Shown here: in pieces, positions 6,065-47,289 of the stretch
Layout: each line of letters starts with the position of its first letter
Position numbering within the stretch: position 1 is the first letter of the stretch
From: Mytilus galloprovincialis
Lineage: Eukaryota; Mollusca; Bivalvia; Mytilida; Mytilidae
Reading direction: 5' to 3'
NCBI RefSeq assembly: GCF_965363235.1
Contig: NC_134839.1
Location: forward strand, 100,211,743 to 100,275,742
DNA: 64,000 nucleotides
Notes under the pieces: model-generated
Database searches by the model: none
Told to the model about the DNA's origin: nothing
Seen by the model: only the letters and a program-made list of their open reading frames with translations
Made by a program: the position numbers and the translations under genes

Positions 6065-6133
6065 ATGGCGACTTACATGTTTCGTCCAACTTTCACTTTC
6101 GTCTTTTTATTTATCATCATACATGCACTAAAG
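6065..6133 (+). CDS. GLB1: GLB1 exon 1: start codon and signal peptide
   Basis: The ATG is in good context (GAAAATGG). It encodes 23 residues: a short polar start with one Arg, then a hydrophobic core ([10 protein letters not shown]) and HALK, a typical secretory signal peptide that directs the enzyme to the ER and then the lysosome. The exon ends in phase 0 at AAG|GTATTT, which joins exon 2 (AxRTFTIDY) cleanly. A short upstream ORF (ATG at 6041) ends just before this start. The start was chosen because it is the only nearby exon with a signal peptide and correct phase. Confidence 0.88.
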
Positions 6134-15100: not shown

Positions 15101-18100
15101 ACATTTCATCTTAATGTTTGCATAGCCACTACTAGCAGTGTTTACACCCTAAATAATCCAGTCGTAATATTTCACTCACTTTATGAAACATCAAAATCAT
15201 ATTTGAATAAACAATTTCATTTATTTTTTTACACTAATATTTGACATCTCATCCAGAATTCCAAAGATTTTAAATAATTCCCAATTTTATTCATTTTTCA
15301 CTACTTCACTAGATTTTTTTCTAAATCCATAGTATAAATTCTGATTAACTTCCCATGATATACATCCTAATTTAACAGGTGCAGAATCTATGCATAATTC
15401 AGAATCTTGTATTTTTTTTTTATCATTTCCATTACTATATTCCAAATAGCTAACCTCACTTTACAAATATTTTGTAATATTTTATTTATATTTTTACTAT
15501 ATATCACTTGATTTTACTATATCCACAGTAAACATTTCATTTCATATCCTATGATAAATTTCCAAATCAAACAATTTTTGATCCAGAATTTTATAATGAC
15601 TATTTCCAATTTTACATTCACTTAAAAGATTTCCTCACGTTAGGAATATTTTAGAATATTTTACTTTCATTTTTCACTTTATCACTAGATTAGACTATAT
15701 CCATAATCCACTGCATTAATTCAACATTTTATTTCATTTCCAAGATCCCATTTAAATGGTAAATCATCTTAAGTTTGTAATAGATCCCAAAATTAATAAT
15801 GAATGATTTTAAAATCACATTTAAAGCCACAGAAACATGTTGGATGATCTCACACTATATCTCCTACTTGAATTCCAGTTTTGAAATTTTTTAATCTTTA
15901 ACATAACTAAATCCCATCGTATGAAAATTTGAATTTCCTTGAGTGAACACAGCATTTTATGCACAAAAGTCCCACTAATATTATAATAGATTTCAAAGAA
16001 AAAACACAGCAAGGTATACTCCAAAATTATTTTCGAATTTTACATGTACAACATCATATGTAAGCCCCACAAAACAGTTTGACTGAATTATTTCCTCCTT
16101 GATGTCCTTCATGACAATAAAATCTTGAAAAAAACACATCACATTTTAAGAAGCAAAATTGCTATAAATAATCTAAGAAGTGAATTGAAATAAAAGAAAT
16201 CCAATATTGTATGCACAATGACACCAAAAGATTTCAAACATTGCAAATAATAATCCAAAATGAGAATCTTGAAGGGTCATGTGAAGAAATGAACAACATA
16301 TCCCTCTGAAAATGTAAACTGTAAACACCTAAACAGCTATTTCTTGTTTCACTGGCAGCTGGACAATACTATATATAAGGGTTAGAATTTTAAAGAAGCA
16401 TTTAGTATGTAAAAACAGTTTAAATTTTCAAACATAGTAATACATATTTAATTCAATCTTTTACTGATTTAGAATTTTAGGTAAAAAATAGATAATTCAT
16501 ATATATCAGAAATTTAAAACAATGAAAACCAAAACTATGTTCTTCCCTATCAATTTTTGAATAGAATAATCCTACGTAAGAAAAAGTTCTGGAAAAAAGC
16601 ATGCTGAAACTTTGGGTTAGGTGAATAAAAATCTTTACAGGTAGCATCAAGGTAGATCATTTGTAAAGTAAAAACAGATGAAAATCAGGAAAATGGTTGC
16701 TACGGCAGGTTTTATTGCTTCTGTTTATTTCTCTCTAGGTACAAGTGAGGACTGTCAGATTTATAGTGTTTTCCTCTTGTATGATTATCTATGATGATAT
16801 TCTGTGGTCTGCTTTTCAGATTGAAAATGAATATGGCAGTTATTTTGCTTGTGATTATGATTATCTACGATATCTACGTGAAAAGGCTTTGGCCTATCTG
16901 GGTCAAGAGGTTATTCTCATAACCACTGACGGGAGTGGTGATGGCTATCTTAAGTGTGGTAACCTAGAGGGTGTATATGCTACTGTTGATTTTGGGGTTA
17001 CTAGTAAGTTTTTCCCTTTATTTATCCAACAATCTTCAATAGTTTTTGCATGCTTTATAATTTTGCACATAATTCACAGCTTTCTCACCCTAATCATCTC
17101 TAAATCCTGAATATTTATTGTATACAGAAAATAGCCAAATAGTTCTAGTTTTATTATTTCATTGTCAATTATGTGTATCATGTTAATTTTTTGCACTTAT
17201 TCAAAAGCTAATTTACATATCTCAATAGATTTACCACTATAGTGGTAAATCTTATATTTTAATCAAAAGCAGGGAGACTCAGACTGGATAATTGAGAGCA
17301 AATACTGTGATGTTAGATATTTCTTTCAGGATTTATTTGCATTAATTTGGTAATCAAAATAAAATCATGAAGAATAACCTTTTGGTTTAATTTTACCTAA
17401 AGGCAAATTCAGAAACAAACAAAAAACATGTTAATAAAACCTCATGAACGGTTTTGGTTCTAAAAAAATTGCAAACTTTTGTTTCTGTAAAAATAAACCA
17501 CTTCTCAGTATTAATATGCTTCTCCATTTTCTCACCAAATTGAGCAGTAGTGTAATGAAATGGATCTCACCATTTTTTTCAGGATTAGCAACTCTATATT
17601 TTACAGTATACACTAAGTCTGAATGAACCACCTTTAAAGTTTATTTTTAAAAGCAATGTCAAACAAATCTGCATGTCAAGCACTTTCCCTTAGCTGTACT
17701 ATTTTTTGCACTAAACATGATTATTTTTTTTTATTCTTTGAACATACTTTTTCTGCAATAAACAAAACAAAAATTGGCTTACTTTATATCATTCCCCAAT
17801 TTGATATACAGTGTACTGACAAAGATGACCGGTTAACTTCAATAAATAAGTCCACTTTTTTGTACCGGTACATATTTATGAAAAAAAAAGTTGAAAGTTA
17901 AGGGAATGTAGAAAAGTTTGTCTATTTAGAGTGTGATTATCCATCCTAATGTTTCTTAATGTTTTTGTAGTGGATCCTAAGAAAGCATTTCAACCACAAA
18001 GAGACTGGGAACCTAAAGGGCCTTTGGTATGTAAAATAAAATAAAAATCTTACCTGTAATGCAAATGCTAAATTTTGATTTGAAACTATTGTAAGATGGT

Positions 18101-21100
18101 TTCATTTATTAGGTGTTGGGGAAAACAATGTTTTTGCAATCATTGATTGTTGTATAAAAGATGGTACATCATGTTGAACACTGATGATAAAATTCAATAT
18201 AAAAAGGAAAAAATAAAGTTAATTAATTGCTAAAAGAGGGCAAGGAAAGGGCAACAAAACCATTTAATGTTTAGAAGCAATGATCAGAATGTGACAGGGC
18301 ATGCTTCTAATACACAATTTTTAATTTACAGGAAAAGTCTTTATACAAACTACATTGTTTTTTAATTGTGTTTTTTACCTTGTTCAACAGGTAAACTCTG
18401 AGTTTTACACTGGTTGGTTAGATCACTGGGGATTCAAACATTCAACCACAGGTTTAGATATTGTTGCCAAGAGTTTAGATGTGTTACTAGCCTATGGTGC
18501 TAATATCAACATGTAAGTAGACTTAGATAAAAAACAAAACATTGACATCAACAAAATCAGGACTTTAATATGAGAGTCTGTAAAGGTGTCAAACAAGCAA
18601 TATTAAATAAGCTTTCAAACAAAACAAGAAAAGAAACAAATGTATAAAATGATATAATGTTTTGATAATGATAAATGATAGAAACTAAAAATCATAAATG
18701 ATATGTTTGACAGCTATACTTCTCTAAGTAATGATAGTCTGAGATTTGTAAGTAAGATACAAACAACTAACCTGCTAAGATTTGCAATTAGAATTAGTTT
18801 TGATTGATTGATATTTGCTGTTAAACCCCACTTTCAGCACTTTTGGCTATTTCATGGCAGGACGTTTTTATTAATGTAAGAAGCCAAGAGAACCAAGATT
18901 TTGAAATCTAGGATTTCAATTAAAATAGTTTATAAGAATTACAGTATGCTTTTGGAAATGTATTAATCAACTGTTTCTTGTGTTTTTTTAAAGGTATATG
19001 TTTGAAGGTGGCACCAACTTTGGCTACTGGAATGGTAAGTCAACACAAGCAAGCTAGCCAAATTTTATAAGATGATCATTTTTATTGCTTACTGATGTCT
19101 TAAAAAATGAATAACACAAATACTTTCAATGCATTAATCAAAGAATAATAAATGATGGCAAACCATTATATAGATTATTTATATGAACTGTATTTGGCAA
19201 GAACTCTATTTATTAACTTTTATGCTAGTCAGATTTATTATTTCCATCTTCAATATAATGCAAAATCTACAATGTCTTAAATAAAATTAATGTACGTTTG
19301 TGCTTTGAATTTAACACAGGGGCGGACTATCTAAGTATTATTTATTTGTACTTTTGATATGTTGCATGCATGTAAACCAATTTAATATGTTATTCTGGGA
19401 CTTTAATAACTGGCAAAGATAAATTTATGGGAGAAAAAAAAACATTTCATATCATGTTGAACTTCTGTCTAGTTCATAATGTGGCGATTGTTGCATGCTG
19501 ACATTTTAAATTAAGTTCTTCAAAAGTGTGTAATTTTTTTACCAATTTTTATTTTTAATATTACAAGAAATGTTAAAATTATGTACCAAGCTACAAACGA
19601 AAAGTTGAAAGATTGGTTAAGGGAACCAGGGGTATACTTTTAAGATCATTTGATTAAATGATCTTAAAGAAGTTACACAAACAATTTAATTTTGATATTC
19701 AGAAGTGAATTTAGAGGGTTTTTCAGGGGGCCTGGGTCCCCCTTTTCTGGGAAAAATTTTGTTGATTATATTGGGAATCACTGAAGCATGGCTGGAGTGG
19801 GCCCCCTCTTGGGCAGTCAGCGGGCCCCCACTTATGAAAATTTCTGGATCCGCCACTGATATTCCATGTTAAAGCATCAAAATTATACATTAGATTAACT
19901 TGTATGCAAAATATACCTGACATGGACTGTATTTTTTTATGAAAGAATGTTAATTTTGACATTGTAGGAGCAAACTATCCAGCATTCCTGCCGGTACCTA
20001 CAAGTTATGACTATGACGGTCCACTAACAGAAGCAGGGGATGTCACTGATAAATATTTGGCACTCAGACAGGTCATTTCAAAGGTAGGATCAGGGACAAG
20101 TCATTTCAAAGGTAGGATTATAGACAAGTCATTTAAAAGGTAGGATCATAGACAAGTCATTTCAAAGGTAGGATTATATATAAAAAAGAAGATGTGGTAT
20201 GATTGCCAAAGAGACCAAAATGACACAGACATTAACAACTATAGGTCACCCTATGATCTTCAACAATGAGCAAAGCCCATACCGCATAGTCAGCTATAAA
20301 AGGCCCAGTTATGACAATGTAAAACAATTCAAACGAGAAAACTAACGGCCTTATTTGTATAAAAAAATGAACTAAATATGTAACACATAAACAAACAACA
20401 ACCACTTAATTACAGGCTCCTGACTTGGGGACAGGCACATACATAAATAATGTGGCAGGGTTAAATTTGTTAGCGGGATCCCAACCCTCCCCCTAACCTG
20501 GGTCAGTGGTATAACAGTACAATAGACAAGTCATTTCAAAGGTAGGATCATAGACAAGTTTTTTCAAAGGTAGGATTATAGACAAGTCTTTTCAAAGGTA
20601 GGATTATAGACAAGTCATTTCAAAGGTAGGATTATAGACAAGTCATTTCAAAGGTAGGATCATAGACAAGTCATTTCAAAGGTAAGATCAGGGACAGGGT
20701 ATAGGAAATACTTTAATGGGGACTGGTCATCTTTGATAATTAAAAGGTTATTCAGGATATTAATTAGATTTGAATATAAATTTTGCTTTGTACTGAAACG
20801 ATATTCATAGTTAGATATTTAATGTGCTAGTTCACAAGGTAACAGTATTCAGGAAGACATATCACCTTACCCAGACACATTATTCTGACTATGAATAAAC
20901 AAAAATAGGATAAATAGAGGTGAAAAAGTTGACTGACAAAACTGAAAAATGAAATGATTATGAGAGATGTAGAGTAAATGCAATGAGAGATAAAAATACT
21001 AGTAAACTGAGTAGACAATCAATGCCATTTATTCAGCCTTCAACATTTGACAAGCACTTACATTTGTATGGTAGGTAATAAATCAGAAGTAACCAAATAT

Positions 21101-24100: not shown

Positions 24101-27100
24101 AAATATTCAGTTAAAATCAGGACTTTCCTAAGATAAGTAGTTACCTAAGTGTACTGATTTCACATTTTAAAATTACAATTCTTAGCTTCATTTTTTGTTG
24201 ACATGGTATAATGACTCATGTATTCTGCCAATGAAACAAACCAAATTGCAAGATTAGCTAGGCTATTTCACTACAGTAAAATATAACTGTATAATCACTG
24301 TCTTTTCAGTATCAAGGTTATGCCTTGTATAGACACATATTCAAACAAGATTACCCTACAGCTCAGAATCTGTCAGTGGTTGGGATCAGAGACAGAGGAT
24401 ATGTTATGATAGACCAGGTAAGATTACCCTACAGCTCAGAATCTGTCAGTGGTTGGTATCAGAGACAAAGGATTTGTTATGATAGACCAGGTAAGATTAC
24501 CCCACAGCTCAGAATCTGTCAGTGGTTGGGATCAGAGACAGGATATGTTATGATAGACCAGGTAAGATTACCCTACAGATCAGAATCTGTCAGTGGTTGG
24601 TATCAGAGACAGGATATGTTATGATAGACCAGGTAAGATTACCCTACAGATCAGAATCTGTCAGTGGTTGGTATCAGAGACAGAGGATATGTTATGATAG
24701 ACCAAGTAAGATAACCCTACAGCTCAGAATCTGTCAGTGGTTGGTATCAGAGACAGAGGATATGATAGACCAGGTAAGATTACCCCACAGCTCAGAATCT
24801 GTCAGTGGTTGGTATCAGAGACAGAGGATATGTTATGATAGACCAGGTAAGATTACCCCACAGCTCAGAATCTGTCAGTGGTTGGTATCAGAGACAGAGG
24901 ATATGTTATGATAGACCAGGTAAGATTACCCTACAGTTCAGAATCTGTTTGTAGTTGGTATCAGAGACAGAGGATATGTTATGATAGACCAGGTAAGATT
25001 ACCCCACAGCTCAGAATCTGTCAGTGGTTGGGATCAGAGACAGAGGATATGTTATGATAGACCAGGTAAGATTACCCCACAGCCCAGAATCTGTCAGTGG
25101 TTGGTATCAGAGACAGAGGATATGTTATGATAGACCAGGTAAGATTACCCCACAGCCCAGAATCTGTTAGAGGTTGGCATCAGAGACAGAGGATATGTTA
25201 TGATAGACCAGGTAAGATTACCCTACAGTTCAGAATCTGTTTGTGGTTGGTATCAGAGACAGAGGATATGTTATGATAGACCAGGTAAGATTACCCCACA
25301 GCCCAGAATCTGTTAGAGGTTGGCATCAGAGACAGAGGATATGTTATGATAGACCAGGTAAGATTACCCTACAGCTCAGAATCTGTCAGTGGTTGGGATC
25401 AGAGACAGAGGATATGTTATGATAGACCAGGTAAGATTACCCCACAGCTCAGAATCTGTCAGTGGTTGGTATCAGAGACAGAGGATATGTTATGATAGAC
25501 CAGGTAAGATTACCCTACAGATCAGAATCTGTCAGTGGTTGGTATCAGAGACAGAGGATATGTTATGATAGACCAGGTAAGATTACCCTACAGCTCAGAA
25601 TCTGTCAGTGGTTGGTATCAGAGACAGAGGATATGTTATGATAGACCAGGAAAGATTACCCTACAGCTCAGAATCTGTCAGTGGTTGGTATCAGAGACAG
25701 AGGATATGTTATGATAGACCAGGTAAGATTACCCCACAGCCCAGAATCTGTTAGAGGTTGGCATCAGAGACAGAGGATATGTTATGATAGACCAGGTAAG
25801 ATTACCCTACAGTTCAGAATCTGTTTGTGGTTGGTATCAGAGACAGAGGATATGTTATGATAGACCAGGTAAGATTACCCCACAGCCCAGAATCTGTTAG
25901 AGGTTGGCATCAGAGACAGAGGATATGTTATGATAGACCAGGTAAGATTACCCTACAGCTCAGAATCTGTCAGTGGTTGGTATCAGACACAGAGGATATG
26001 TTATGATAGACCAGGTAAGATTACCCTACAGATCAGAATCTGTCAGTGGTTGGGATCAGAGACAGAGGATATGTTATGATAGACCAGGTAAGATTACCCC
26101 ACAGCTCAGAATCTGTCAGTGGTTGGTATCAGAGACAGAGGATATGTTATGATAGACCAGGTAAGATAACCCTACAGATCAGAATCTGTCAGTGGTTGGT
26201 ATCAGAGACAGAGGATATGTTATGATAGACCAGGTAAAATTACCCTACAGCTCAGAATCTGTCAGTGGTTGGCATCAGAGACAGAGGATATGTTATGATA
26301 GACCAGATAAGATTACCCTACAGATCAGAATCTGTCAGTGGTTGGTATCAGAGACAGAGGATATGTTATGATAGACCAGGTTAGATTACCCCACAGATCA
26401 GAATCTGTCAGTGGTTGGTATCAGAGACAGAGGATATGTTATGATATCCCAGGTAAAATAACCCCACAGCACAGAATATGTCAATGGTTGGTATCAGAGA
26501 CAGAGGATATGTTATGATAGACCAGGTAAGATTACCCTACAGCTCAGAATCTGTTTTTGGTTGGTATCAGAGACAGAGGATATGTTATGATAGACCAGGT
26601 AAGATTACCCCACAGCTCAGAATCTGTCAGTGGTTGGTTTCAGAGACAGAGGATATGTTATGATAGACCAGGTAAGATTACCCCACAGCTCAGAACCTGT
26701 CAGTGGTTGGGATCAGAGACAGAGGATATGTTATGATAGACCAGGTAAGATTACCCCACAGCTCAGAATCTGTCAGTGGTTGGTTTCAGAGACAGAGGAT
26801 ATGTTATGATAGACCAGGTTAGATTACCCCACAGTTCAGAACCTGTCAGTGGTTGGGATCAGAGACAGAGGATATGTTATGATAGACCAGGTAAGATTAC
26901 CCTACAGCACAGAATCTGTCAGTGGTTGGTGTCAGAGACAAAGTATATGTTATGATAGACCAGGTAAGATTACCCCACAGCTCAGAATCTGTTTGTGGTT
27001 GATATCAGAGACAGAGGATATGTTATGATAGACCAGGTAAGATTACCCTACAGCTCAGAATCTGTTTGTGGTTGGTATCAGAGACAGAGGATATGTTATG

Positions 27101-30100
27101 ATAGACCAGGTAAGATTACCCCACAGCTCAGAATCTGTCAGTGGTTGGTTTCAGAGACAGAGGATATGTTATGATAGACCAGGTAAGATTACCCCACAGC
27201 TCAGAATCTGTTTGTGGTTGGTATCAGAGACAGAGGATATGTTATGATAGACCAGGTAAGATTACCCTACAGATCAGAATCTGTCAGTGGTTGGTATCAG
27301 AGACAAAGGATATGTTATGATAGACCAGGTTAGATTACCCACAGATCAGAATCTGTCAGTGGTTGGTTTCAGAGACGGAGGATATGTTATGATAGACCAG
27401 GTAAGATTACCCTACAGCTCAGAATCTGTCAGTGGTTGGTATCAGAGACAGAGGATATGTTTTGATATCCCAGGTAAGATTACCCCACAGCCCAGAATCT
27501 TTTAGAGGTTGGCATCAGAGACAGAGGATATGTTATGATAGACCAGGTAAGATTACCCTACAGCTCAGAATGTGTCAGTGGTTGGGATCAGAGACAGAGG
27601 ATATGTTATGATAGAGCAGGTAAGATTACCCTACAGCTCAGAATGTGTCAGTGTTTGGGATCAGAGACAGAGGATATGTTATGATAGACAAGGTAAGATT
27701 ATCCCACAGCTCAGAATGTGTCAGTGGTTGGTATCAGAAACAGAGGATATGTTATGATAGACCAGGTAAGATTACCCCACAGCTCAGAATCTGTCAGTGG
27801 TTGGTATCAGAGACAGAGGATATGTTATGATAGACCAGGTAAGATTACCCCACAGCTCAGAATCTGTCAGTGGTTGGTATCAGACAGAGGATATGTTATG
27901 ATAGACCAGGTAAGATTACCCCACAGCACAGAATCTGTCAGTGGTTGGTATCAGAGACAGAGGATATGTTATGATAGACCAGGTATCAGAGACAGAGGAT
28001 ATGTTATGATAGACCAAGTAAGATTACCCCACAGCTCAGAATCTGTCAGTGGTTGATATCAGAGACAAAGGATATGTTATGATAGGCCAGGTAAGATTAC
28101 CCTACAGCTCAGAATCTGTCAGTGGTTGGGATTAGAGACAGAGGATATGTTATGATAGACCAGGTAAGATTACCCCACAGCTCAGAATCTGTCAGTGGTT
28201 GGGATCAGAGACAGAGGATATGTTATGATAGACCAGGTAAGATTACCCTACAGCTCAGAATCTGTCAGTGGTTGGGATCAGAGACAGAGGATATGTTATG
28301 ATAGACCAGGTAAGATTACCCTACAGCTCAGAATCTGTCAGTGGTTGGTATCAGAGACAGAGGATATGTTATGATATCCCAGGTAAAATTACCCCACAGC
28401 ACAGAATATGTCAATGGTTGGTATCAGAGACAGAGGATATGTTATGATAGACCAGGTAAGATTACCCTACAGCTCAGAATCTGTTTGTGGTTGGTATCAG
28501 AGACAGAGGATATGTTATGATAGACCAGGTAAGATTACCCCACAGCTCAGAATCTGTCAGTGGTTGGTTTCAGAGACAGAGGATATGTTATTATAGACCA
28601 GGTAAGATTACCCTACAGCTCAGAACCTGTCAGTAGTTTGGATCAGAGACAGAGGATATGTTATGATAGACCAGGTAATATTACCCCACAGCTTAGAATC
28701 TGTCAGTGGTTGGTTTCAGAGACAGAGGATATGTTATGATAGACCAGGTTAGATTACCCCACAGTTCAGAACCTGTCAGTGGTTTGGATCAGAGACAGAG
28801 GATATGTTATGATAGACCAGGTTAGATTACCCCACAGTTCAGAACCTGTCAGTGGTTTGGATCAGAGACAGAGGATATGTTATGATAGACCAGGTAAGAT
28901 TACCCTACAGCACAGAATCTATCAGTGGTTGGTGTCAGAGACAAAGTATATGTTATGATAGACCAGGTAAGATTACCCCACAGCTCAGAATCTGTTTGTG
29001 GTTGGTATCAGAGACAGAGGATATGTTATGATAGACCAGGTAAGATTACCCTACAGCTCAGAATCTGTTTGTGGTTGGTATCAGAGACAGAGGATATGTT
29101 ATGATAGACCAGGTAAGATTACCCCACAGCTCAGAATCTGTTTGTGGTTGGTATCAGAGACAGAGGATATGTTATGATAGACCAGGTAAGATAACCCTAC
29201 AGATCAGAATCTGTCAGTGGTTGGGATCAGAGACGGAGGATATGTTATGATATCCCAGGTAAAATTACCCCACAGCACAGAATATGTCAATGGTTGGTAT
29301 CAGAGACAGAGGATATGTTATGATAGACCAGGTAAGATTACCCTACAGCTCAGAATCTGTTTGTGGTTGGTATCAGAGACAGAGGATATGTTATGATAGA
29401 CCAGGTAAGATTACCCCACAGCTCAGAATCTGTCAGTGGTTGGTTTCAGAGACAGAGGATATGTTATTATAGACCAGGTAAGATTACCCTACAGCTCAGA
29501 ACCTGTCAGTAGTTTGGATCAGAGACAGAGGATATGTTATGATAGACCAGGTAATATTACCCCACAGCTCAGAATCTGTCAGTGGTTGGTTTCAGAGACA
29601 GAGGATATGTTATGATAGACCAGGTTAGATTACCCCACAGTTCAGAACCTGTCAGTGGTTTGGATCAGAGACAGAGGATATGTTATGATAGACCAGGTAA
29701 GATTACCCTACAGCACAGAATCTGTCAGTGGTTGGTGTCAGAGACAAAGTATATGTTATGATAGACCAGGTAAGATTACCCCACAGCTCAGAATCTGTTT
29801 GTGGTTGGTATCAGAGACAGAGGATATGTTATGATAGACCAGGTAAGATTACCCTACAGCTCAGAATCTGTTTGTGGTTGGTATCAGAGACAGAGGATAT
29901 GTTATGATAGACCAGGTAAGATTACCCCACAGCTCAGAATCTGTTTGTGGTTGGTATCAGAGACAGAGGATATGTTATGATAGACCAGGTAAGATTACCC
30001 TACAGCTCAGAATGTGTCAGTGTTTGGGATCAGAGACAGAGGATATGTTATGATAGACCAGGTAAGATTATCCCACAGCTCAGAATGTGTCAGTGGTTGG

Positions 30101-33100
30101 TATCAGAGACAGAGGATATGTTATGATAGACCAGGTATGATTACCCCACAGCTCAGAATCTGTCAGTGGTTGGTATCAGACAGAGGATATGTTATGATAG
30201 ACCAGGTAAGATTACCCTACAGCTCAGAATCTGTTTGTGGTTGGTATCAGAGACAGAGGATATGTTATGATAGACCAGGTAAGAATACCCCACAGCACAG
30301 AATCTGTTTGTGGTTGGTATCAGAGACAGAGGATATGTTATGATAGACCAGGTAAGATTACCCTACAGATCAGAATCTGTCAGTGGTTGGTATCAGAGAC
30401 AGAGGATATGTTATGATAGACCAGGTAAGATTACCCCACAGATCAGAATCTGTCAGTGGTTGGTTTCAGAGACGGAGGATATGTTATGATAGACCAGGTA
30501 AGATTACCCACAGCTCAGAATCTGTCAGTTGTTGGGATCAGAGACAGAGGATATGTTATGATAGACCAGGTAAGATTACCCCACAGCTCAGAATCTGTCA
30601 GTGGTTGGTATTAGAGACAGAGGATATGTTATGATAGACCAGGTAAGATAACCCTACAGCTCAGAATCTGTCAGTGGTTGGGATCAGAGACAGAGGATAT
30701 GTTATGATAGGCCAGGTAAGATTACCCCACAGCTCAGAACCTGTCAGTGGTTGGTATCAGAGACAGAGAATATGTTATGATAGACCAGGTAAGATTACCC
30801 CACAGCTCAGAATCTGTCAGTGGTTGGTATTAGAGACAGAGGATATGTTATGATAGACCAGGTAAGATAACCCTACAGCTCAGAATCTGTCAGTGGTTGG
30901 GATCAGAGACAGAGGATATGTTATGATAGGCCAGGTAAGATTACCCCACAGCTCAGAATCTGTCAGTGGTTGGTATCAGAGACAGAGGATATGTTATGAT
31001 AGACCAGGTAAGATAACCCTACAGCTCAGAATCTGTCAGTGGTTGGGATCAGAGACAGAGGATATGTTATGATAGACCAGGTAAGATTACCCCACAGCTC
31101 AGAATCTGTCAGTGGTTGGGATCAGAGACAGAGGATATGTTATGATAGACCAGGTAAGATAACCCTACAGCTCAGAATCTGTCAGTGGTTGGTATCAGAG
31201 ACAGAGGATATGTTATGATAGACCAGGTAAGATAACCCTACAGCTCAGAATCTGTCATTGGTTGGGATCAGACACAGAGGATATGTTATGATAGACCAGG
31301 TAAAATTACCCCACAGCTCAGAATCTGTTTGTGGTTGGTATCAGAGACAGAGGATATGTTTTGATAGACCAGGTAAGATTACCCCACAGCTCAGAATCTG
31401 TCAGTTATTGGTATCAGAGACAGAGGATATGTTATGAAAGACCAGGAAAGATTACCCTACATAGTGTTTCCTGCAGCTTTTAAAAAGGGCAGGGTAATTG
31501 TTAGCTCAGAGGGCACATTAAGCGCGATGGACAACAATTTTAGGGCACTTACTTAACATAAACAGGCAATTTCTATAAAATGGATTCATTTAAAACATAC
31601 TAGTTTAATACTATAAAAAGGACATATACATCTGTAATCAATCATTAAAACAAATTGTTAAACAAGAAAAAGTGTGTAAAACATATATATATGAAATATT
31701 TAAAACAATAAACACAATTAAAAACAAAATCAGTTCTTTAAAAACAAGAAAGCACTATGTCATATACATGTATATAAAAATATTGCTTTGGTCATATCAA
31801 TTGTCATTGACAAATCCTCCTTTTTTTCCTTAAAAACAGGTTGACACATTCCCTGATATCCAGGGTCATTTTTAGTAACTAAAATTTATTAAATTACAAA
31901 AAAAAATAACTTTACAAATTAACCCCTTCCCCTCTACACCCTTTTCCAAATTAAATTAATATAGATACAACAAGTTTTACTACTTTCATGGCACTACCAT
32001 ATCAGCTGTTTATTTTAAATGTCTATAAATAGCCAGACATAGTTGTCTGTTACTTAGGTGTTTTCCCCAAGTATTTTTCCCGCCTAAAATGATCATGTGA
32101 CATGTTTGTAAACAAAAGAAAACATTTGATCAAGGAATCCATTTATTTTCTGGATTATTCTGCTTTTAATAATTTAGTTTGGATTTTTATTCATTTCATT
32201 TAAGGTACAGTCAAGCATTTGTATTTAAAAAATAGTTTGCAAAGAATTTTTACTTTTCAATTTGACAAATGTCTCATGTCAGATCGCCGTTCATTGGCTT
32301 GTTCAACCATGCAAACAATGTAAATTATGTAAATTAGAAATCTATCAGCTGTAAAAAAAAATTATCTAAGCATCACATCGATGTTTTTTCATTAATCTTC
32401 TAGGCAAAACGATGTTTCTGGGACTTGGGGGATACAATCAGGACCCGTGATTAGTATCTGTATTCACTATTCAATCTATTGCAGTTTGCTAATCAGCTGA
32501 TTACGAAATCGATTACAAAATGGCGACCTAGTGAACTTTTGTTTTGAAGGGAAATAACTCGAGCGGTATTCATAAAATATGTCTTTCAGTACCAGTTGTT
32601 AATTACGACGATAAAGGCATGGCGTCAGGAATTTCGACAAAATTAGGGCAGGGCGCAAATTTTTTTTTCCCAAAAAGGGCAGGGCTTCGAGAAATCGCGG
32701 CAGGGCGCCATTACACGCCAAAACCACCTGTAGAAAACACTACCTACAGCTCAGAATCTGTCAGTGGTTGGGATCAGAGACAGAGGATATGTTATGATAG
32801 ACCAGGTAAGATTACCCTACAGCTCAGAACCTGTCAGTGGTTGGTATCAGAGACAGAGGATATGTTATGATTGACCAGGTAAGATTACCCCACAGCTCAG
32901 AATCTGTCAGTGGTTGGTATCAGAGACAGAGGATATGTTATGATAGACCAGGTAAAATTACCCCACAGCTCAGAATCTGTCAGTGATTGGGATCCGAGAC
33001 AGAGGATATGGGACAATATTTCTAATGCGCCTTGAAATGAGGATATGTTATGAAAGACCAGGTACAATAGCATTTTCTCATTACAGTTGTTATTTAAAGC

Positions 33101-35301
33101 ACATTTTGATTCTACTTAGAGATTTCACATTTTTGTATGATATTCAAAATCAATGAAGGCAAATTTTAAAATAAGCATAATATTATTCATTAGAATATAT
33201 GAAAATGGAGTATCAGTCAAAGAACAGAATTTTGATAGAGACCTTGAAATTTATTACATAGTGTTTTACCAGTTATGACTAGATAAACTCAATAAATGAG
33301 GACTATAATGATATAAATATTCAAAGTGTTCTTTTGTCAAATGTTTTCTGATATACATATTTGTTATGTTGATATTTTATTCAATAACCAATTTTAATAG
33401 GAACACAATATTTGTTGTTTGGAAATCATGTTATATTTTTTAGGTTCCTGTTGGTCTGGTGATTAGGGAAAGAATACATAATTTATCTTTAAGCATTACA
33501 GCAAAGAAAGGTCAAACATTGGATATATTAGTGGAGAACCAAGGACATATAAACTTTGGATCTGGTATTAATAACAATACTAAGGTATGTTGGTATCTCT
33601 TGAAAATGACAATGCTAAGTTGTGGTAGAAGTAAGTTGATATAAACTTCAGACCAGAAATCAGTGTCACTTCTTAGATATGCAACTTTTTTTGAAATCAC
33701 TAGTTTCATTTTGTTGAAGAATACTTTTAATCAGACATCTGTTTCAAAAATGAAGGTCACCATTGACAAAACTGTCATAATTGCCATACAATTTGGTTTT
33801 TATTATAAATCAAATTCAACATAGAAACTACTGACTCAGACATCAAATGTTGGTTTCAATTTAAATCTGAGATAGAACAATCTTTTTATCTTTTTTCATA
33901 TATAAGGGTTTTGAACTGCATATAGTTAGTACAATATAATTAATTGTCTATTCAGTAAAATCTAGTTATTCAATTGGCGAACATGAATTTGACAGCTAAT
34001 GTCCATTAACAATACTAACTTCTTTGATACATGAATTGGTATGTCATTATTTTATAGAAAGTTCCTTACCTGAAATGTTTTGGAAAGAAACCACTTTGTT
34101 TTTTTTTGTTTGTTATTTTAACAGGGTATCATACAAAATGTTACCATAGGAACCACAATATTAACAGACTGGGAAATGTATCCTGTATCTCCTGAATTAT
34201 TTGAACCAAGTACAGATACATTTAAAAGGTACTTAGAAATGATAATGCATATTTATTAAACTGAACAAATGTGAAAATAAAGACTGTACATGTATATCAT
34301 TACATTTCATGAAAATATCTAGTAATTTTATATTGAGGAGGAAGATGATGACAAGATGATATCTATCTAATCCTATATCTTGACCTTGAGGACTGTAAAT
34401 GATTTTATTCCATAGCAAATTGTATGTTTTCATGTTTGTATAAACAATTGGATCTTTGTTGAATTAATAATTATTTAAATCATATTTTTCAGTATTGGAA
34501 CACCTTATTACAGTAAGGATGGGAGATTTATGTCGCCCTCTATTTATGTAGGACAAATGCCAACCCTTACAGACCCTCAAGATACCTATCTAGATCCCAC
34601 TACCTGGTCAAAGGTAATTAACTTACAAAGTATAACTTCTAATAATTCAGATGATACCTGAATCTGAGTCCACAATGGCTCTTGGAAGGTAAACAGTAAG
34701 TTAATTTCTGATGACTTTGTTGTATTGTTAGGATGTTGTCTCCTTAAGGTTTACCCACATCTCTGTAATGTAGTCAGTTCTCATATTGATATCATATTGA
34801 TCTAAAATTGACTAGTTGGTTTACTTTCTCATAAATTTTTGATTTGAATCATATTGATGGGTAGGGTACAACATTTTGATCCAACTTATCCAAACCATCA
34901 TTTTGCACCTCACATGAAATAATTTTTATTTTGTGTTGTTTTTATTTTTAAATCCAAATAAACTATATCAGTATCTTTTAAACCTATTTGTATATATTAT
35001 AAAATATTTTTACTTTCAGGGTCAGACAATTATAAGGAGTAACATGGCGTATAACATAGGAAGATATTGGCCCATTGCTGGACCACAAATAAGACTGTTT
35101 GTACCAAAGCCTTACCTGGCTCCAAACACTGTTAATAATGTGATAATGTTCGAACTTGAAATGGCACCATGTAAAACCCAGGCTGGATGTACTGTTGAGT
35201 TTAAAGATAAACCATTAATCAATGCTACAGCACATGGACCTTATCATAAATATATGTCTCAAGAAATAGGTTATAAATATAACTGGCATTCGTTTCATTA
35301 A
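6065..35301 (+). CDS. GLB1: Beta-galactosidase (GLB1), complete 18-exon gene
   Basis: A complete lysosomal-type acid beta-galactosidase of glycoside hydrolase family 35, which removes terminal beta-galactose from gangliosides, glycoproteins and keratan sulfate in lysosomes. CDS exons: 6065-6133, 7538-7701, 8162-8312, 10055-10118, 11522-11616, 13025-13223 (6a) or 16820-17003 (6b), 17971-18026, 18391-18512, 18994-19034, 19968-20083, 21809-21883, 23711-23806, 24310-24417, 33444-33584, 34125-34228, 34493-34613, 35020-35301. All phases match. The product is 662 aa with 6b or 667 with 6a, against 677 in human. Landmarks: signal peptide (residues 1-23), [30 protein letters not shown], acid/base Glu185 in IENEYGSY (human Glu188), nucleophile Glu265 in [13 protein letters not shown] (human Glu268), [12 protein letters not shown], and the C-terminal IGRYWP jelly-roll motif. 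Two exon ends (10 and 13) are expanded into tandem arrays. Confidence 0.97.
6398..6830 (+). repeat. Family A repeat fragment, intron 1
   Basis: Contains CGACCACAAAATTTTG, TGGTATCACGTCGTTG, AGGAAGGTTTGGATTGATTT and ACAATAACTTGTGTTAAAG blocks shared with the other family A copies. No coding potential. Confidence 0.6.
6838..7031. mobile_element. MITE with ~27-bp inverted ends in intron 1
   Basis: The ends are inverted copies: GTGTAAGGGAGGTAATCCAA on the left and the complement of GGATAACCTCCCTTACACTG on the right. The core, in reverse orientation, is a fragment of repeat family C (copies at 12256 and 37448), including GGCCGTACCTTGACCTATAA. The unit is about 194 bp and non-coding. Confidence 0.6.
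7255..7385 (+). repeat. Family A repeat 3' fragment, intron 1
   Basis: Two partly duplicated CCCCAACTGTTCAGG-TTGGACAT units followed by the GCGGTCGTATCCAG end seen in other family A copies. It lies about 150 bp before exon 2. Confidence 0.55.
7538..7701 (+). CDS. GLB1: GLB1 exon 2: start of the GH35 barrel
   Basis: Residues 24-78. It contains [14 protein letters not shown] and [19 protein letters not shown], the first conserved block of GH35 enzymes, and an N-glycosylation sequon NRT near the mature N-terminus. Acceptor TATTCAG; the donor GTAGGT splits a Val codon. Confidence 0.95.
8162..8312 (+). CDS. GLB1: GLB1 exon 3
   Basis: Residues 78-128. It contains YVPWNFHE and [12 protein letters not shown], conserved strands of the TIM barrel near the galactose pocket. 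Acceptor TTTCTAG, donor GTAAGT, ends in phase 0. Confidence 0.95.
8390..9552 (+). repeat. Composite of family A and related repeats, intron 3
   Basis: Contains family A blocks (8400-8650, 9040-9125 and 9470-9552) and a segment with GTGTCCCTATGGACACATTC (near 8911), a motif that also ends the repeats at 57750-58440. Embedded is an inverted copy (9337-9457) of the repeat at 293-415. No exon signals. Confidence 0.55.
10055..10118 (+). CDS. GLB1: GLB1 exon 4
   Basis: Residues 129-150, [12 protein letters not shown] followed by FRTMDS. It corresponds to the human GGLPAWLL segment. Acceptor TTTCAG, donor GTAAGT, phase 1. Confidence 0.93.
10555..11465 (+). repeat. Tandem repeat, ~160-bp units, in GLB1 intron 4
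   Basis: About five diverged head-to-tail units share TGTCCGTGCATT, CCAAAGCTT, AATATGTTGTTACTGA, GAGGTCAAGTTCAATAATG and GGAGTTATGGTTCTTGAAA. The block opens with a GGCGGGCGGGCGG patch (10595-10610) and closes with CCGGTTTGCTGTCG (11435-11450). It belongs to a dispersed bivalve repeat class and is not coding. Confidence 0.8.
11522..11616 (+). CDS. GLB1: GLB1 exon 5
   Basis: Residues 150-181, [20 protein letters not shown] then GGPVLMVQ. It ends in phase 0 directly before the acid/base motif, so either version of exon 6 continues it. Acceptor TTACTAG, donor GTATGT. Confidence 0.95.
11626..12185 (+). repeat. Dispersed repeat family A (TATACGACCGCAAA), copy in intron 5
   Basis: It starts TATACGACCGCAAAAA followed by CGTCGTATAATGGTATCATG, then repeated blocks containing ACAATAACTCAAAAA. 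The same family recurs at 6398-6830, 7255-7385, 8390-9552, 22432-23064 and 54045-54620, making it the most frequent dispersed repeat in the window. Confidence 0.7.
12256..12610 (+). repeat. Dispersed bivalve repeat family C, intron 5
   Basis: Shares AAAAGTAAACCATTATA, TACGGTCTTCAA, ACAGCAAGCTATAAA and AACGGTCTAATC blocks with 37448-37680. Truncated or inverted relatives are at 6893-6985 and 52260-52345. It resembles short non-autonomous elements very common in mussels. Confidence 0.65.
13025..13223 (+). CDS. GLB1: GLB1 exon 6a (alternative copy with acid/base Glu)
   Basis: This is the first of two tandem versions of exon 6 and encodes 66 codons plus one base. It opens with IENEYGSY, carrying the acid/base Glu185, continues [16 protein letters not shown], then VIFTTDG, and ends [16 protein letters not shown]. 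Both Cys residues matching the human Cys195-Cys230 disulfide are kept. Compared with 6b it has four extra residues before the first Cys (KVTGGY versus FA) and one more before the second. Acceptor TTTTTCAG, donor GTAAGT, phase 0 in and 1 out, identical to 6b. If 6a were spliced to 6b the frame would read ACC CAT TGA, a stop, so the two are expected to be mutually exclusive. Confidence 0.9.
13642..13793. mobile_element. Long palindromic foldback element in intron 6a-6b
   Basis: About 150 bp, nearly perfectly self-complementary: the left end ATAACTAATCGCCGTATTTG pairs with the right end, followed inward by AATATCAAAAATAAGACAAC and its complement. The centre holds GTTTAATCC / GGATTAAAC. The size and symmetry fit a foldback MITE. 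No coding potential. Confidence 0.75.
14430..14775 (+). repeat. Dispersed repeat family D, copy 1
   Basis: It aligns by eye with 53490-53835 over about 340 bp: shared blocks include AGAAAAATAT, CATGCCTGATGACTTTAC (CATGTCTGATGACGTCAC in the other copy), GAAACAGATTC and AACAGTTAAATTT. It is non-coding and lies between exons 6a and 6b. Confidence 0.6.
14885..16657. mobile_element. 1.77-kb element with ~96-bp inverted arms between exons 6a and 6b
   Basis: The left arm (14885-14980) and right arm (16561-16657) are inverted copies with only a few mismatches; for example ATCTACCTTGATGCTACCTG pairs at the outer end and CCTAGGATTATTCTAT at the inner end. The interior is AT-rich with degenerate blocks such as TTTCATTTC, CATTTTTCAC and AATTCCAAA. 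No transposase frame is visible, so it may be a non-autonomous TIR element. In RNA the arms could form a long stem in the intron separating the two alternative exons. Confidence 0.65.
16820..17003 (+). CDS. GLB1: GLB1 exon 6b (canonical copy with acid/base Glu)
   Basis: Second version of exon 6, residues 182-243. It encodes [20 protein letters not shown], then [17 protein letters not shown] and [11 protein letters not shown]. It matches the vertebrate segment closely (YFACDFDYLRFL), so it is the likely canonical exon. Glu185 is the acid/base catalyst; the YFAC and LKCG cysteines match the human Cys195-Cys230 pair. Acceptor GCTTTTCAG, donor GTAAGT; phases 0 in and 1 out as in 6a. Confidence 0.95.
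17227..17252. repeat. Perfect 26-bp palindrome in intron 6b
   Basis: The sequence is its own reverse complement around ACTATAGT, with arms AGATTTACC and GGTAAATCT. It could form a cruciform or an RNA hairpin. Function unknown. Confidence 0.9.
17971..18026 (+). CDS. GLB1: GLB1 exon 7
   Basis: Residues 243-261, [24 protein letters not shown] is conserved and leads into the nucleophile motif. Acceptor TTTTTGTAG, donor GTATGT, phase 1 in and 0 out. The first codon is Met when joined to 6b (A+TG) and Leu when joined to 6a (C+TG). Confidence 0.95.
18391..18512 (+). CDS. GLB1: GLB1 exon 8: catalytic nucleophile
   Basis: Residues 262-302, [19 protein letters not shown] and on to LLAYGANIN. Glu265 in NSEFYTGW is the catalytic nucleophile (human Glu268). 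Acceptor TTCAACAG, donor GTAAGT, splits a Met codon. Confidence 0.96.
18780..18900 (+). repeat. Mollusc SINE-like fragment, intron 8
   Basis: The block starting GATTGATTGATATTTGCTGT and continuing TTAAACCCCACTTTCAGCAC resembles a widely dispersed molluscan short element. It is truncated. Confidence 0.45.
18994..19034 (+). CDS. GLB1: GLB1 exon 9
   Basis: A 41-nt exon, residues 302-316, [13 protein letters not shown], the conserved [12 protein letters not shown] block that lines the active site. Acceptor TTTTTTTAAAG, donor GTAAGT. Confidence 0.94.
19715..19861 (-). repeat. Dispersed repeat, copy 2 (first at 1765-1915)
   Basis: Inverted copy of the 1765-1915 repeat in intron 9, ending just before the word CACTGATATTCC. 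It shares the GTGGGGGCCC-type block, GGATCC and the ATTGGGAATCACTGAAGC region. The short minus-strand frame across it is a product of the repeat. Confidence 0.65.
19968..20083 (+). CDS. GLB1: GLB1 exon 10
   Basis: Residues 316-354. It includes [20 protein letters not shown] and the end LALRQVISK, matching human [20 protein letters not shown]. Acceptor ACATTGTAG, donor GTAGGA, phase 0 out. The last 17 exonic bases and the donor form the first unit of a 28-bp tandem array. Confidence 0.96.
20067..20692 (+). repeat. 28-bp minisatellite derived from the exon 10/intron 10 junction
   Basis: The unit is GACAAGTCATTTCAAAG followed by GTAGGATTATA (28 bp). Unit 1 (20067-20094) contains the real end of exon 10 and its donor. 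Three more units run to 20178, then a 350-bp repeat interrupts, and six more units run 20525-20692. Every unit keeps a GTAGGA or GTAAGA donor preceded by AAAG. Since 28 is not a multiple of three, use of the next donors would shift the frame. Confidence 0.92.
20178..20524 (+). mobile_element. Dispersed bivalve repeat family B inserted in the 28-bp array
   Basis: Starts near GAAGATGTGGTATGATTGCC and continues AGAGACCAAAATGACACAG, CAATGAGCAAAGCCCATACC, GGCTCCTGACTTGGGGACAG and AACCCTCCCCCTAACCTGGG. Degenerate copies lie at 3060-3260 and 39811-40150 on the other strand. I recognise it as an abundant mussel repeat. It splits the array of exon 10 copies, so it arrived after the array formed. Confidence 0.75.
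20823..21080. repeat. Dispersed repeat fragment, intron 10
   Basis: The block CAGGAAGACATATCACCTTA followed by CATTATTCTGACTATGA recurs at 39595-39650 (CAGGAAGACATGTCATCTTA). A 132-codon minus-strand frame extends from here to 21431 but is AT-rich and lacks any recognisable domain. Confidence 0.45.
21469..21624. mobile_element. Palindromic foldback element, intron 10
   Basis: Arms of about 65 bp: the left AATAACATAAAAAATGTGGT and GCACACTG pair with the right CAGTGTGC and ACCACATTTTTTATGTTATT. Outer ends TAAGGAATGACT and AGTCATTTCTTA also pair. The loop contains AACGCGCGTAACGGG. It ends about 185 bp before exon 11. Confidence 0.75.
21809..21883 (+). CDS. GLB1: GLB1 exon 11
   Basis: Residues 355-379: [20 protein letters not shown] then IEMKF, matching human [20 protein letters not shown] at the end of the barrel. 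Acceptor TTTCTGCAG, donor GTAAGT. Confidence 0.95.
22199..22324. mobile_element. Foldback element, intron 11
   Basis: The left part ATATGGCTTTTTCAATATC, CCGTATCAACCC and CCAATATAA pairs with the right part TTATATTGG, GGGTTGATACGG and GATATTCAAAAAGCCATAT. Centre GATCAGAGCTCTTGG. About 125 bp. Confidence 0.65.
22432..23064 (+). repeat. Family A repeat, near full-length, intron 11
   Basis: The most complete copy: starts TATACGACCGCAAACC, contains GATCGTATAATGGTATGATG, AGGTTGGGATTCATTTTGG, AATTTGGCCCAACTGTTCAG, and ends TGTGCTCAGCGAAGCATTTT. No coding capacity. Confidence 0.7.
23165..23290. mobile_element. Palindromic foldback element (family E), intron 11
   Basis: The left arm TAGTCCAAATAATTATGATG through TTGACGCCTTAC pairs with the right arm GTAAGGTGTCAA through CATAATTATTTGGACTA; the loop is six bases. 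A diverged relative lies at 50848-50962. Confidence 0.8.
23711..23806 (+). CDS. GLB1: GLB1 exon 12
   Basis: Residues 380-411: [20 protein letters not shown] then [12 protein letters not shown], matching the human linker from VGAALDIL to FIQVKQ. Acceptor ATTCTTTCAG, donor GTATAA, phase 0 on both sides. Confidence 0.93.
24310..24417 (+). CDS. GLB1: GLB1 exon 13 (its 3' end is unit 1 of a satellite)
   Basis: Residues 412-447: [14 protein letters not shown], then [20 protein letters not shown] ending in Gln. It matches human QHYGFVLYRTTLPQD and HDRAYVAVDG, from the beta domain that follows the barrel. Acceptor TCTTTTCAG, donor GTAAGA. From 24347 to the exon end the sequence is the founder-like first unit of the 73-bp array. 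Extending to the second donor adds 73 nt and shifts the frame. Confidence 0.95.
24347..31461 (+). repeat. 73-bp satellite made from the exon 13 end and its splice donor
   Basis: About 95-100 head-to-tail units. Each runs AAGATTACCC(T/C)ACAGCTCAG, then AATCTGTCAGTGGTTGG, ATCAGAGACAGAGGATATG, TTATGATAGACCAGGT. Unit 1 (24347-24419) contains the last 71 coding bases of exon 13 plus GT. The joint between units falls where exonic CAAGATT and intronic GTAAGATT share AAG, suggesting origin by a short-homology duplication. Nearly every unit keeps CAG|GTAAGA (a donor) and C(T/C)ACAG (an acceptor-like end), so each looks like a 56-nt micro-exon. Variants include TTTGTGGTTGG, TTAGAGGTTGGC and a GATATCCCAGG type. 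All short ORFs inside are the repeat read in three frames. Confidence 0.97.
28408..30159 (+). repeat. Higher-order 876-bp (12-unit) duplication in the satellite
   Basis: The series of unit variants starting at the GATATCCCAGGTAAAATTACC unit near 28373 recurs at about 29249, an offset of 876 bp or exactly 12 units, with the same order of diagnostic variants (AATATGTCAATGG, TTATTATAGACC, GTCAGTAGTTTGG, ACAAAGTATATG). A related series starts near 26446. Confidence 0.7.
31462..32742. mobile_element. hAT-like non-autonomous element inserted in the 73-bp satellite
   Basis: A 1.28-kb insertion interrupts the array. It starts TAGTGTTTCCTGCAG; the right end reads CTGTAGAAAACACTA, its imperfect inverse. 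Flanks are ACCCTACA on the left and CCTACAG on the right, consistent with a 6-8 bp target duplication, as expected for hAT elements. GGGCAGGG motifs lie near both ends (31487 and 32647-32705). No transposase frame. The satellite resumes at 32743, so insertion followed amplification. Confidence 0.65.
32743..33064 (+). repeat. Distal block of the 73-bp exon 13 satellite
   Basis: About four and a half units after the hAT-like element, with the last ones decayed: a GGATCCGAGACAG variant and a foreign stretch (33010-33040) before the terminal GACCAGGTACAATAGC. Normal intron sequence follows to exon 14. Confidence 0.92.
33444..33584 (+). CDS. GLB1: GLB1 exon 14
   Basis: Residues 448-494: [20 protein letters not shown], then [20 protein letters not shown]. 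TLDxLVEN and the GxxNxG turn match human TLDLLVENMGRVNYG of the jelly-roll domain. Acceptor TTTTTTAG, donor GTATGT, phase 0. The splice from exon 13 crosses about 9 kb of mostly satellite intron. Confidence 0.96.
34125..34228 (+). CDS. GLB1: GLB1 exon 15
   Basis: Residues 495-529: [20 protein letters not shown] then [13 protein letters not shown]. ILTDWxxxP is conserved with human ILTDWTIFP. Acceptor TTTAACAG, donor GTACTT (weak +3 to +6), split codon. Confidence 0.93.
34493..34613 (+). CDS. GLB1: GLB1 exon 16
   Basis: Residues 529-569: [20 protein letters not shown] then PTTWSK, matching human PAFYMGNFSIPSG and PQDTFIQFPGWTKG. Acceptor TTTTTCAG, donor GTAATT. Confidence 0.94.
35020..35301 (+). 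CDS. GLB1: GLB1 exon 17: C-terminus and stop
   Basis: Residues 570-662: [59 protein letters not shown]. IGRYWPxxGPQxxLFVP is the C-terminal GH35 signature (human LGRYWPARGPQLTLFVP). TAA at 35299-35301. The Cys pair near the end matches human Cys626-Cys634. Confidence 0.96.
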   Translation, partial: GQTIIRSNMAYNIGRYWPIAGPQIRLFVPKPYLAPNTVNNVIMFELEMAPCKTQAGCTVEFKDKPLINATAHGPYHKYMSQEIGYKYNWHSFH

Positions 35302-38692: not shown

Positions 38693-39433
38693 ATACTTTG
38701 GATTGGTGGTTTCAGATTGATACCAACTTTGCATTCCTTTGTGACAATGGTTTCAGATGTATGATGATCACTTTATGATACTTTGGGTCAGTGGTTTCAG
38801 ATTTATACCAACTTTGCATTTCTTTGTGACAGTTGTTTCAGATAGATTAATACCAACTTTGCATTCCTTTGTGAGTTGTTTTTCAGACTGATACCAACTT
38901 TGCATTACTTTGTGACAGTGGTTTCAGATTGATACCAACTTTGCATTACTTTGTGACAGTGGTTTCAGACTAATACCAACTTTGCATTACTTTGTAAGTG
39001 GTTTCAGGTTGATACCAACTTTGCATTACGTTGTGACAGTGGTTTCAGATTGATACCAACTTTGCATTACGTTGTGACAGTGGTTTCAGATTGATACCAA
39101 CTTTGCATTACTTTGTGACAGTGGTTTCAGATTGATACCAACTTTGCATTACTTTGTGACAGTGGTTTCAGACTGATACCAACTTTGCATTACTTTGTGA
39201 CAGAGGTTTCAGATTGATACCAACTTTGCATTACTTTGTGACAGTGGTTTCAGACTGATACCAACTTTGCATTACTTTGTGACAGTGGTTTCAGATTGAT
39301 ACCAACTTTGCATTACTTTGTGACAGTGGTTTCAGACTGATACCAACTTTGCATTACTTTGTGACAGTGGTTTCAGATTGATACCAACTTTGCATTCCTT
39401 TGTTACAGTGGTTTCAGATTGATTACAACTTTG
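38693..39433 (+). repeat. 41-bp tandem array, ~18 units
   Basis: The unit is GACAGTGGTTTCAGATTGAT then ACCAACTTTGCATTACTTTGT, with several shortened or diverged units at the left end and point variants throughout. Each unit carries a TTTCAG (acceptor-like) and a TTTGTGA. It lies 3.4 kb beyond the GLB1 stop and does not match any exon in the window. Confidence 0.88.
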
Positions 39434-39594
39434 AATTTCTTTTTGACCATGGTTTCAGATGATGGATGTCTGTTTAAAGTCAATTGCATATTCAGGAAGA
39501 ACATGTAATTTTATATGACTACTAACCCTGCCTTGTACTAGATAGACATGCCGAGTGCTGATTTTTAACCTACTAGTTCACAATAAAACAGTCT

Positions 39595-46572: not shown

Positions 46573-47289
46573 TGTGCACTTCCTTCAAGATAATAAATAA
46601 AATTTAACATGTTTTATTGCATTGAAAATAAAAACTATGATTTCTTAATTATGAGTAAACCAACAACTACTAACTTTATACTTTATTTCTTTTTAACTTA
46701 ATAGCAATATTTCTAAACATTATTATGATACTGTTGTTGTTCAATTATTGTGTCTTGTAAATCTGGTGATAAGCATAGATTGAAACACTTATTTAATTTT
46801 ATTTAAAAGTTATGGTTGATCATGGTTTGTAGCAAAATTAAAATTCTGTTTGTTTTTCAGGATTGAAATTCTGCACAGGCAAAACTTTCTTCATGTACTG
46901 TTTATCTGCATCTGGCAGAAAATTGCCATCTTCAACATGTCAAAGTTTCTGTTATATACTAGTAATTGTTTTCTAGAAAGTTTATTGCAATAACTGGTAG
47001 AGTTCTGTAATTTGGTACTAATATTTTGTTGTTTTTTATCTCTAATATACGGATATTATAATCTCACTTAAGTACTTTTCTTGTACCGGTATAGTCTTCT
47101 GTATTAATTTATTCACAACTTTTTAACAGGTTGGGGAAGATTCTCATAAGTATCATCCCCATTGAAGGGTATTATTATAGAATACCCTAAACAGGCATCA
47201 ATTTATAGTAATAACAAGAATGCACACTCTGAAATGTCGCCTTCTTTTCTTAACATTGATATTATGTTGAAAGTCCTAAATATAAAGCA

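Follow-up and report, generated by a model that had tools for sequence, protein, structure and literature searches.

The end of a coding exon and its splice donor as the first unit of a tandem array of about a hundred copies in the mussel GLB1 gene, with similar arrays at other exon ends

Tandem repeats that run across an exon-intron boundary were named mirages in the amphioxus gene Adh3, and they have also been described in the globin genes BflGb6 and BflGb9, in TnC and in PGBD5. According to the available parts of these reports, their units measure 10-160 bp, and regular splicing is reportedly undisturbed by them (PMC3087553, PMC3902484). Here, we describe arrays that resemble them in the mussel Mytilus galloprovincialis, in a window (the whole stretch of DNA analysed, 64,000 nt; C2:100211743-100275742) of an assembly of 1.385 Gb in 331 contigs. 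The gene for a GH35 beta-galactosidase (GLB1), encoded on the + strand, fills the left half of this window, and the last 71 bases of its exon 13, together with the GT of the following donor, are the first unit of an array of about 100 units of 73 bp in intron 13.

As in the amphioxus mirages, the mussel units are arranged in tandem across an exon-intron boundary and many of them carry splice signals. Where the available text of the amphioxus reports states copy numbers, these are low (6 and 3 in BflGb6, 3 in PGBD5), whereas the mussel has about 100 units in one intron; it further differs in having two arrays in one gene, and in being a mollusc. The units contain both an exon side and an intron side (71 + 2 nt at exon 13 and 17 + 11 nt at exon 10), AG/GT splice signals are present in the units of the larger array (GT in 97/100, the full CAG|GTAAGA in 79/100), and the outcome of tandem-repeat turnover, a homogenised interior with a degenerate edge, is found as well, the degenerate edge being on the right. 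Judged by these features of the sequence, the anatomy of the mussel array agrees with that of a mirage, and the exon-end arrays reported here seem to belong to a recurring type of repeat that has its small-scale precedent in amphioxus. Among the papers listed from the openly licensed literature, judged by title and the start of the abstract, no mirage was recognised in a mollusc. Introns with tandem repeats have been reported for mussel lysozyme, and the part of that report at hand states no boundary (PMC3448621).

Other described systems share single traits with this locus. In human duplicated genes, internal tandem repeats at exon-intron boundaries likewise span the boundary and can alter the exon end; in the available text they are tied to novel introns and alternative transcripts (PMC2812944), whereas in the mussel, according to protein records, an old intron merely grew. 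The potato RdRp gene, as far as the accessible part of its description goes, resembles the mussel in that a duplication including a splice site puts exon-derived sequence into an intron (PMC4974935); unlike in that case, no new intron arises, and intron 13 joins the same exons. The old junction between exons 13 and 14 is found in the protein records, so the locus is no example of intron gain by tandem duplication. The array of the human UBC gene has one AG|GT site per unit, as does the mussel array, but in the portion of text available its units are coding and 228 nt long (PMC10809524), while the mussel units are intronic, 73 nt long and of borderline acceptor quality. The mussel units do not keep a coding frame either, as 73 leaves a remainder of 1 when divided by 3 and 95/96 downstream GT donors lead to a stop.

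That the gene is GLB1, as a preliminary description based on the letters of the window had proposed, is borne out by GH35 beta-galactosidase matches at the protein, structure and domain levels. Exon 1 ends at 6133, and exons 2-17 (7538-35301), when spliced in our reconstruction of the coding sequence (CDS), form one open frame, whose product matches beta-galactosidase structures over nearly its full length (best 7kdv, residues 2-613 of 639). The top protein match for exons 12-14 is a Mytilus edulis model (P0006), with 100% identity over the 91 compared residues and differences from the GLB1 of the window at few residues outside that stretch; another record, P0007, is a 662-residue protein from a 2025-bp contig, 92% identical to P0006. 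The 94 listed matches to exons 13-14 all fall in the GLB1 locus, and among them no paralogue was found for comparison. GLB1 also has two alternative copies of exon 6 (13025-13223 and 16820-17003) with the same phases and with ENEYGSY in both, which we take to hold the acid/base glutamate of GH35. Since both copies together break the frame, they look mutually exclusive; copy 6b is used in P0006 and copy 6a in P0007. The features of the exon 13 region are as follows.

24310..24417, + strand: GLB1 exon 13, 108 nt, phase 0 to 0, 36 residues (open CDS reconstruction, protein records)
24418-33443, + strand: GLB1 intron 13 (CDS reconstruction)
33444..33584, + strand: GLB1 exon 14, acceptor partner of the first donor (CDS reconstruction)
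24347..24419, + strand: first 73-bp unit, made up of the final 71 nt of exon 13 and the donor GT at 24418-24419 (alignment)
24562..24563, + strand: donor 3, giving a 252-nt exon with 48 extra residues, open through exon 14; the sole downstream GT donor of this kind
24347..31461, + strand: main part of the 73-bp array, with 98 rows in the alignment (50 and 51 incomplete) and a further, truncated one (Tandem Repeats Finder, TRF; wrap-around alignment)
28385..29990, + strand: higher-order repeat, units 57-62 repeated, almost variant for variant, as 69-74, 12 units or 876 bp further on (alignment listing)
within 28385..29990, + strand: higher-order repeat, continued, units 64-67 again as 75-78 (offset 11 units)
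31462..32742, no strand assigned: 1281-bp insertion splitting a 73-bp unit, with short inverted TAGTGTTT termini and a 6-bp target duplication, CCTACA (coordinates read by hand)
32743..33064, + strand: right block of the 73-bp array, about four units plus a degenerate tail; final donor CAG|GTACAATAG

TRF counted 97.2 copies of the unit at 24347-31461 (score 9463) and 3.6 copies at 32746-33010, and the wrap-around alignment followed the right block up to 33064 in five rows, the last two of them degenerate. The alignment comprises 104 rows, 99 with at most 5 gaps, and 98 of those make up the variant table, in which the units differ pairwise by 6.7% on average. Unit 1 departs from the consensus at 2 positions, and the units at 25360 and 28239 equal it letter for letter over 73 nt, which is compatible with, but no proof of, gene conversion of exon 13. 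The exon-end origin put forward in the preliminary description is upheld. Its picture of a continuous array of about 7.4 kb stands as regards the roughly 100 head-to-tail units, but not as regards continuity, which is interrupted by the insertion at 31462-32742, probably a DNA transposon. The left edge of the array is exon 13 itself, the right-hand units are degenerate, and the interior holds higher-order blocks, in which units 57-67 reappear as 69-78, minus one unit; identity between units is slightly raised at lag 12 (0.9405, against about 0.933 elsewhere) and likewise at lag 2. Chance is not a serious alternative as the origin of this array. In a DNA search of the whole assembly with the 73-bp unit, which scores the best candidates only, all 102 listed matches fall in the GLB1 locus. 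No protein relative was found for a peptide deduced from the array, and the exon-intron junction of the array matched 0 viral contigs, in a searched set that may omit records of the same or a very near genome.

The retention of donors given above refers to 103 rows examined, of which 100 have both donor columns, and it confirms that the array presents near-identical donors. The preliminary description had further held that the first of them must be favoured, and the protein records support this: both P0006 and P0007 read ...YVMIDQ-VPVGL..., with exon 13 joined to exon 14 at the first donor. Since a 2-kb contig is too short for the unspliced 29-kb gene, P0007 probably derives from a transcript. 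No long insertion occurs at the exon 13-14 junction in the other 11 aligned proteins, which include scallops and echinoderms. It had also been claimed that any later donor shifts the frame or soon meets a stop. This is correct for the 95 downstream donors already mentioned, which run into a stop within exon 14 or already within the lengthened exon 13, but not for donor 3, which is in frame and stop-free. The frame class is kept by 34/97 GT donors, and exons 13 and 14 are both open only with donors 1 and 3. Going by the sequence, donors 2 and 3 (181- and 252-nt exons) are the likely leaks.

Donor 1 is strong. In pairing with the 5' end of U1, in the letters that we presume for it, donor 1 reaches -11.0 kcal/mol, the best value among 16 GLB1 donors (exons 2-16, both exons 6), compared with -7.1 kcal/mol for the donor of the rightmost unit, which suggests that the donor gained strength through the duplication. 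The flank of that rightmost donor, CAG|GTACAATAG, would represent the old intron flank. The potential acceptors are of another quality. CCC(C/T)ACAG occurs 96 times in the array and, scored with a small matrix (acceptor and donor matrices were built from 16-17 sites), these CCYACAG motifs have a median of -4.4, against 2.1-12.4 for the real GLB1 acceptors. Because they fall so far below the acceptors of the gene itself, the 56-nt micro-exons and circular RNAs envisaged in the preliminary description are not supported, and this candidate was set aside.

A second array of the same form was found at exon 10 of GLB1.

19968..20083, + strand: GLB1 exon 10 (CDS reconstruction)
20067..20178, + strand: first part of the exon 10 array, 4 units of 28 bp, with 17 nt from the end of exon 10 and 11 nt of intron in unit 1 (TRF)
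20179-20524: insertion that separates the 4 units from the following 6
20525..20692, + strand: second part of the exon 10 array, 6 units of 28 bp (TRF)

Here, GACAGG opens the exonic 28-bp unit and is met again in the flank to the right of the array, a pattern suggestive of slippage involving short direct repeats. Of the two arrays, the one at exon 10 appears to show most clearly, at the level of its letters, how such an array may originate.

Similar arrays are present elsewhere in the genome. We searched the whole assembly for CAGGTAAG occurring three times at spacings of 51-81, with the same pattern backwards as the control, and obtained 1255 matches (628 + 627 by strand) versus 371 backwards (87 + 284); these figures count matches, not arrays, and large arrays dominate them. 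The motif and the pattern miss weaker donors, such as that of GLB1 exon 10 itself, and as the pattern favours strong donors, the strength of the first donors found with it is no evidence by itself. A sample of 100 listed places was grouped by hand into 16 arrays, all on contig C1, and thus represents a single contig and a single motif. Except at L045/L055, the upstream edge could be reached (15/16 listed arrays), and 13/15 begin at the donor end of an open exon. Homology supports 9 of these 13, with gene names that are based on short exon matches.

C1 exon-end arrays with homology: glycogen debranching enzyme (two: L037, L044), MTR4, FANCD2, zinc transporter 7
C1 exon-end arrays with homology, continued: FBXO7 (weak, E 8.5e-4), IP3 receptor (E about 2e-4), M1 peptidase, otoferlin-like
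C1 exon-end arrays with an open frame only: L047, L048, L051 (weak), L056

At L056, the exon-end unit is 105 bp long, and the listed array of shorter period adjoins it. No exon was found at the upstream edge of L042, and no open exon end at L040/L054 (a 34-bp array). The array at GLB1 exon 13, whose uniqueness the preliminary description had implied, is therefore not a one-off, given the exon 10 array and these further exon ends. Like GLB1, one gene for glycogen debranching enzyme has two exon-end arrays (L037, L044), and some genes may be prone to them. Arrays on the acceptor side were observed as well, at L056:1-521 (50 bp x 10.5) and L057:1-127 (40 bp x 3.2; coordinates on the reverse complement), with units that end in a 3' splice site and a last unit that runs into the true exon. 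In the 200 kb to the right of the window, TRF listed 68 arrays, with one further large donor-bearing array (49 bp x 75, L021:4142-7849), while the backwards motif gave one two-copy array. L021:4142-7849 has no open exon upstream and a poor acceptor score; being without an exon in front, it counts against the view that all donor-bearing arrays are exon ends. Its units mostly read TTAG|GTAAGT and resemble a run of recursive-splice motifs, yet with weak acceptors.

We consider it quite probable that the exon 13 array is a mirage-type minisatellite, a neutral tandem duplication over the exon-donor boundary that has been tolerated since the first donor is normally used. A short tandem duplication would once have covered the last bases of exon 13 and the start of its intron. 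With the first donor in use, everything beyond it becomes intron, and we propose that the duplication was thereby invisible in the mRNA and survived. Growth to about 100 units, with the higher-order blocks, would be due to unequal exchange or slippage, and the split to the later arrival of a transposon-like element; the left flank would survive at the coding exon, and the former intron flank at the last unit. The start of the array inside the exon, together with its end in a unit with a different, intron-like flank, supports a boundary duplication. Exon definition is an established concept in splicing, and as it would pair the strong acceptor at 24309 with whichever donor follows most closely, donor 1 would normally be chosen. 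Donor 1 would also be transcribed first, the later units would lack a good acceptor, and the duplication itself may have given donor 1 better U1 pairing than the ancestral donor inferred from the rightmost unit.

Several observations weigh against this account. The backwards control pattern also matched the genome 371 times. The small matrix places donor 1 at 10.3, with three GLB1 donors higher (10.6-11.5; the other donors of the gene range over 3.4-11.5). P0006 may stem from an assembly without the array, and the source of P0007 may likewise be without it. The rules for competing donors do not uniformly favour the distal (first) site, SRSF1 activating the intron-proximal one according to the accessible part of the report (PMC5585400). 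By changed cells, the donor columns are about half as variable as the others (19/882 versus 256/6272), something that a neutral array would not call for. Finally, CAG|GT is a passable acceptor by score, with a median of 2.75 and 91/100 units scoring no lower than the weakest real GLB1 acceptor (2.1), so that splicing within the array is possible; in the background, 14% of 913 AGs also reach 2.1.

The last of these observations would fit dual-specific or recursive splicing, in which CAG|GTAAGA acts as acceptor and donor and the intron is excised stepwise, n x 73 nt at a time, either leaving the mRNA unchanged or yielding a ladder of isoforms like that of UBC. Human UBC is indeed processed via a tandem array of such sites, as stated in the available text (PMC10809524), and the CAG|GT scores, from a matrix of 17 sites, are in its favour. 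These scores nevertheless lie at the bottom of the real range, where about one in seven background AGs equals them, the unit is without a clear pyrimidine tract, and neither P0006 nor P0007 contains added units; we regard such a ladder as unlikely. The low number of changed cells in the donor columns, the GT kept in nearly all units and the open frame of donor 3 could alternatively reflect a selected function, whether protection of the intron against premature polyadenylation by a long run of U1 sites or a donor 3 switch for an in-frame isoform with 48 extra residues. The count of changed cells is, however, inflated by shared descent, because one change inherited by many units is counted repeatedly; by variant types (8 over the 9 donor columns, 45 over the other 64; 98 rows, hand tally), the donor columns vary like the rest and are without extra constraint. 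On balance, we lean towards no selection on these columns. Arrays with like donors occur in unrelated genes, and the 48-residue insert is absent from P0006 and P0007, which leaves a selected function highly improbable. Tandem arrays are often collapsed or stretched in assemblies, and the array might be real with a misassembled length, or partly an artefact; given that its units differ from one another to the extent stated, that it contains higher-order blocks and an inserted element, and that the assembly has comparable arrays in other places, we give this very little credence.

Beyond the neutral minisatellite at exon 13, it is conceivable, though rather doubtful, that exon-intron junctions are preferred birthplaces of tandem arrays in this genome, either through a process linked to the junction or through a filter that spares only those duplications whose first donor or last acceptor is strong. 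Mirages would then be found in very many genes and on both sides of exons.

In the remainder of the window, TRF detected a 41-bp x 18 array at 38706-39460, to the right of GLB1. On the - strand, 45985-46584 holds a stop-free short-chain dehydrogenase frame of 200 residues (Pfam adh_short), presumably sepiapterin reductase-like. An Rfam scan of the window gave nothing over the gathering threshold.

To our knowledge, donor choice among identical neighbours has mostly been studied with few competing sites. Because two units match the exon copy over 73 nt, donor 1 is probably marked by the 37 exon bases further upstream, by the upstream acceptor, or simply by order and distance. As the same genome has arrays with other periods and copy numbers, the donor rule could be read from RNA. 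The arrays show exon sequence turning into intron; gene annotation and read mapping can easily be misled by them. If exon-intron junctions are indeed preferred birthplaces of such arrays, the mussel genome would be a large natural experiment in which the spliceosome chooses among up to a hundred identical donors.

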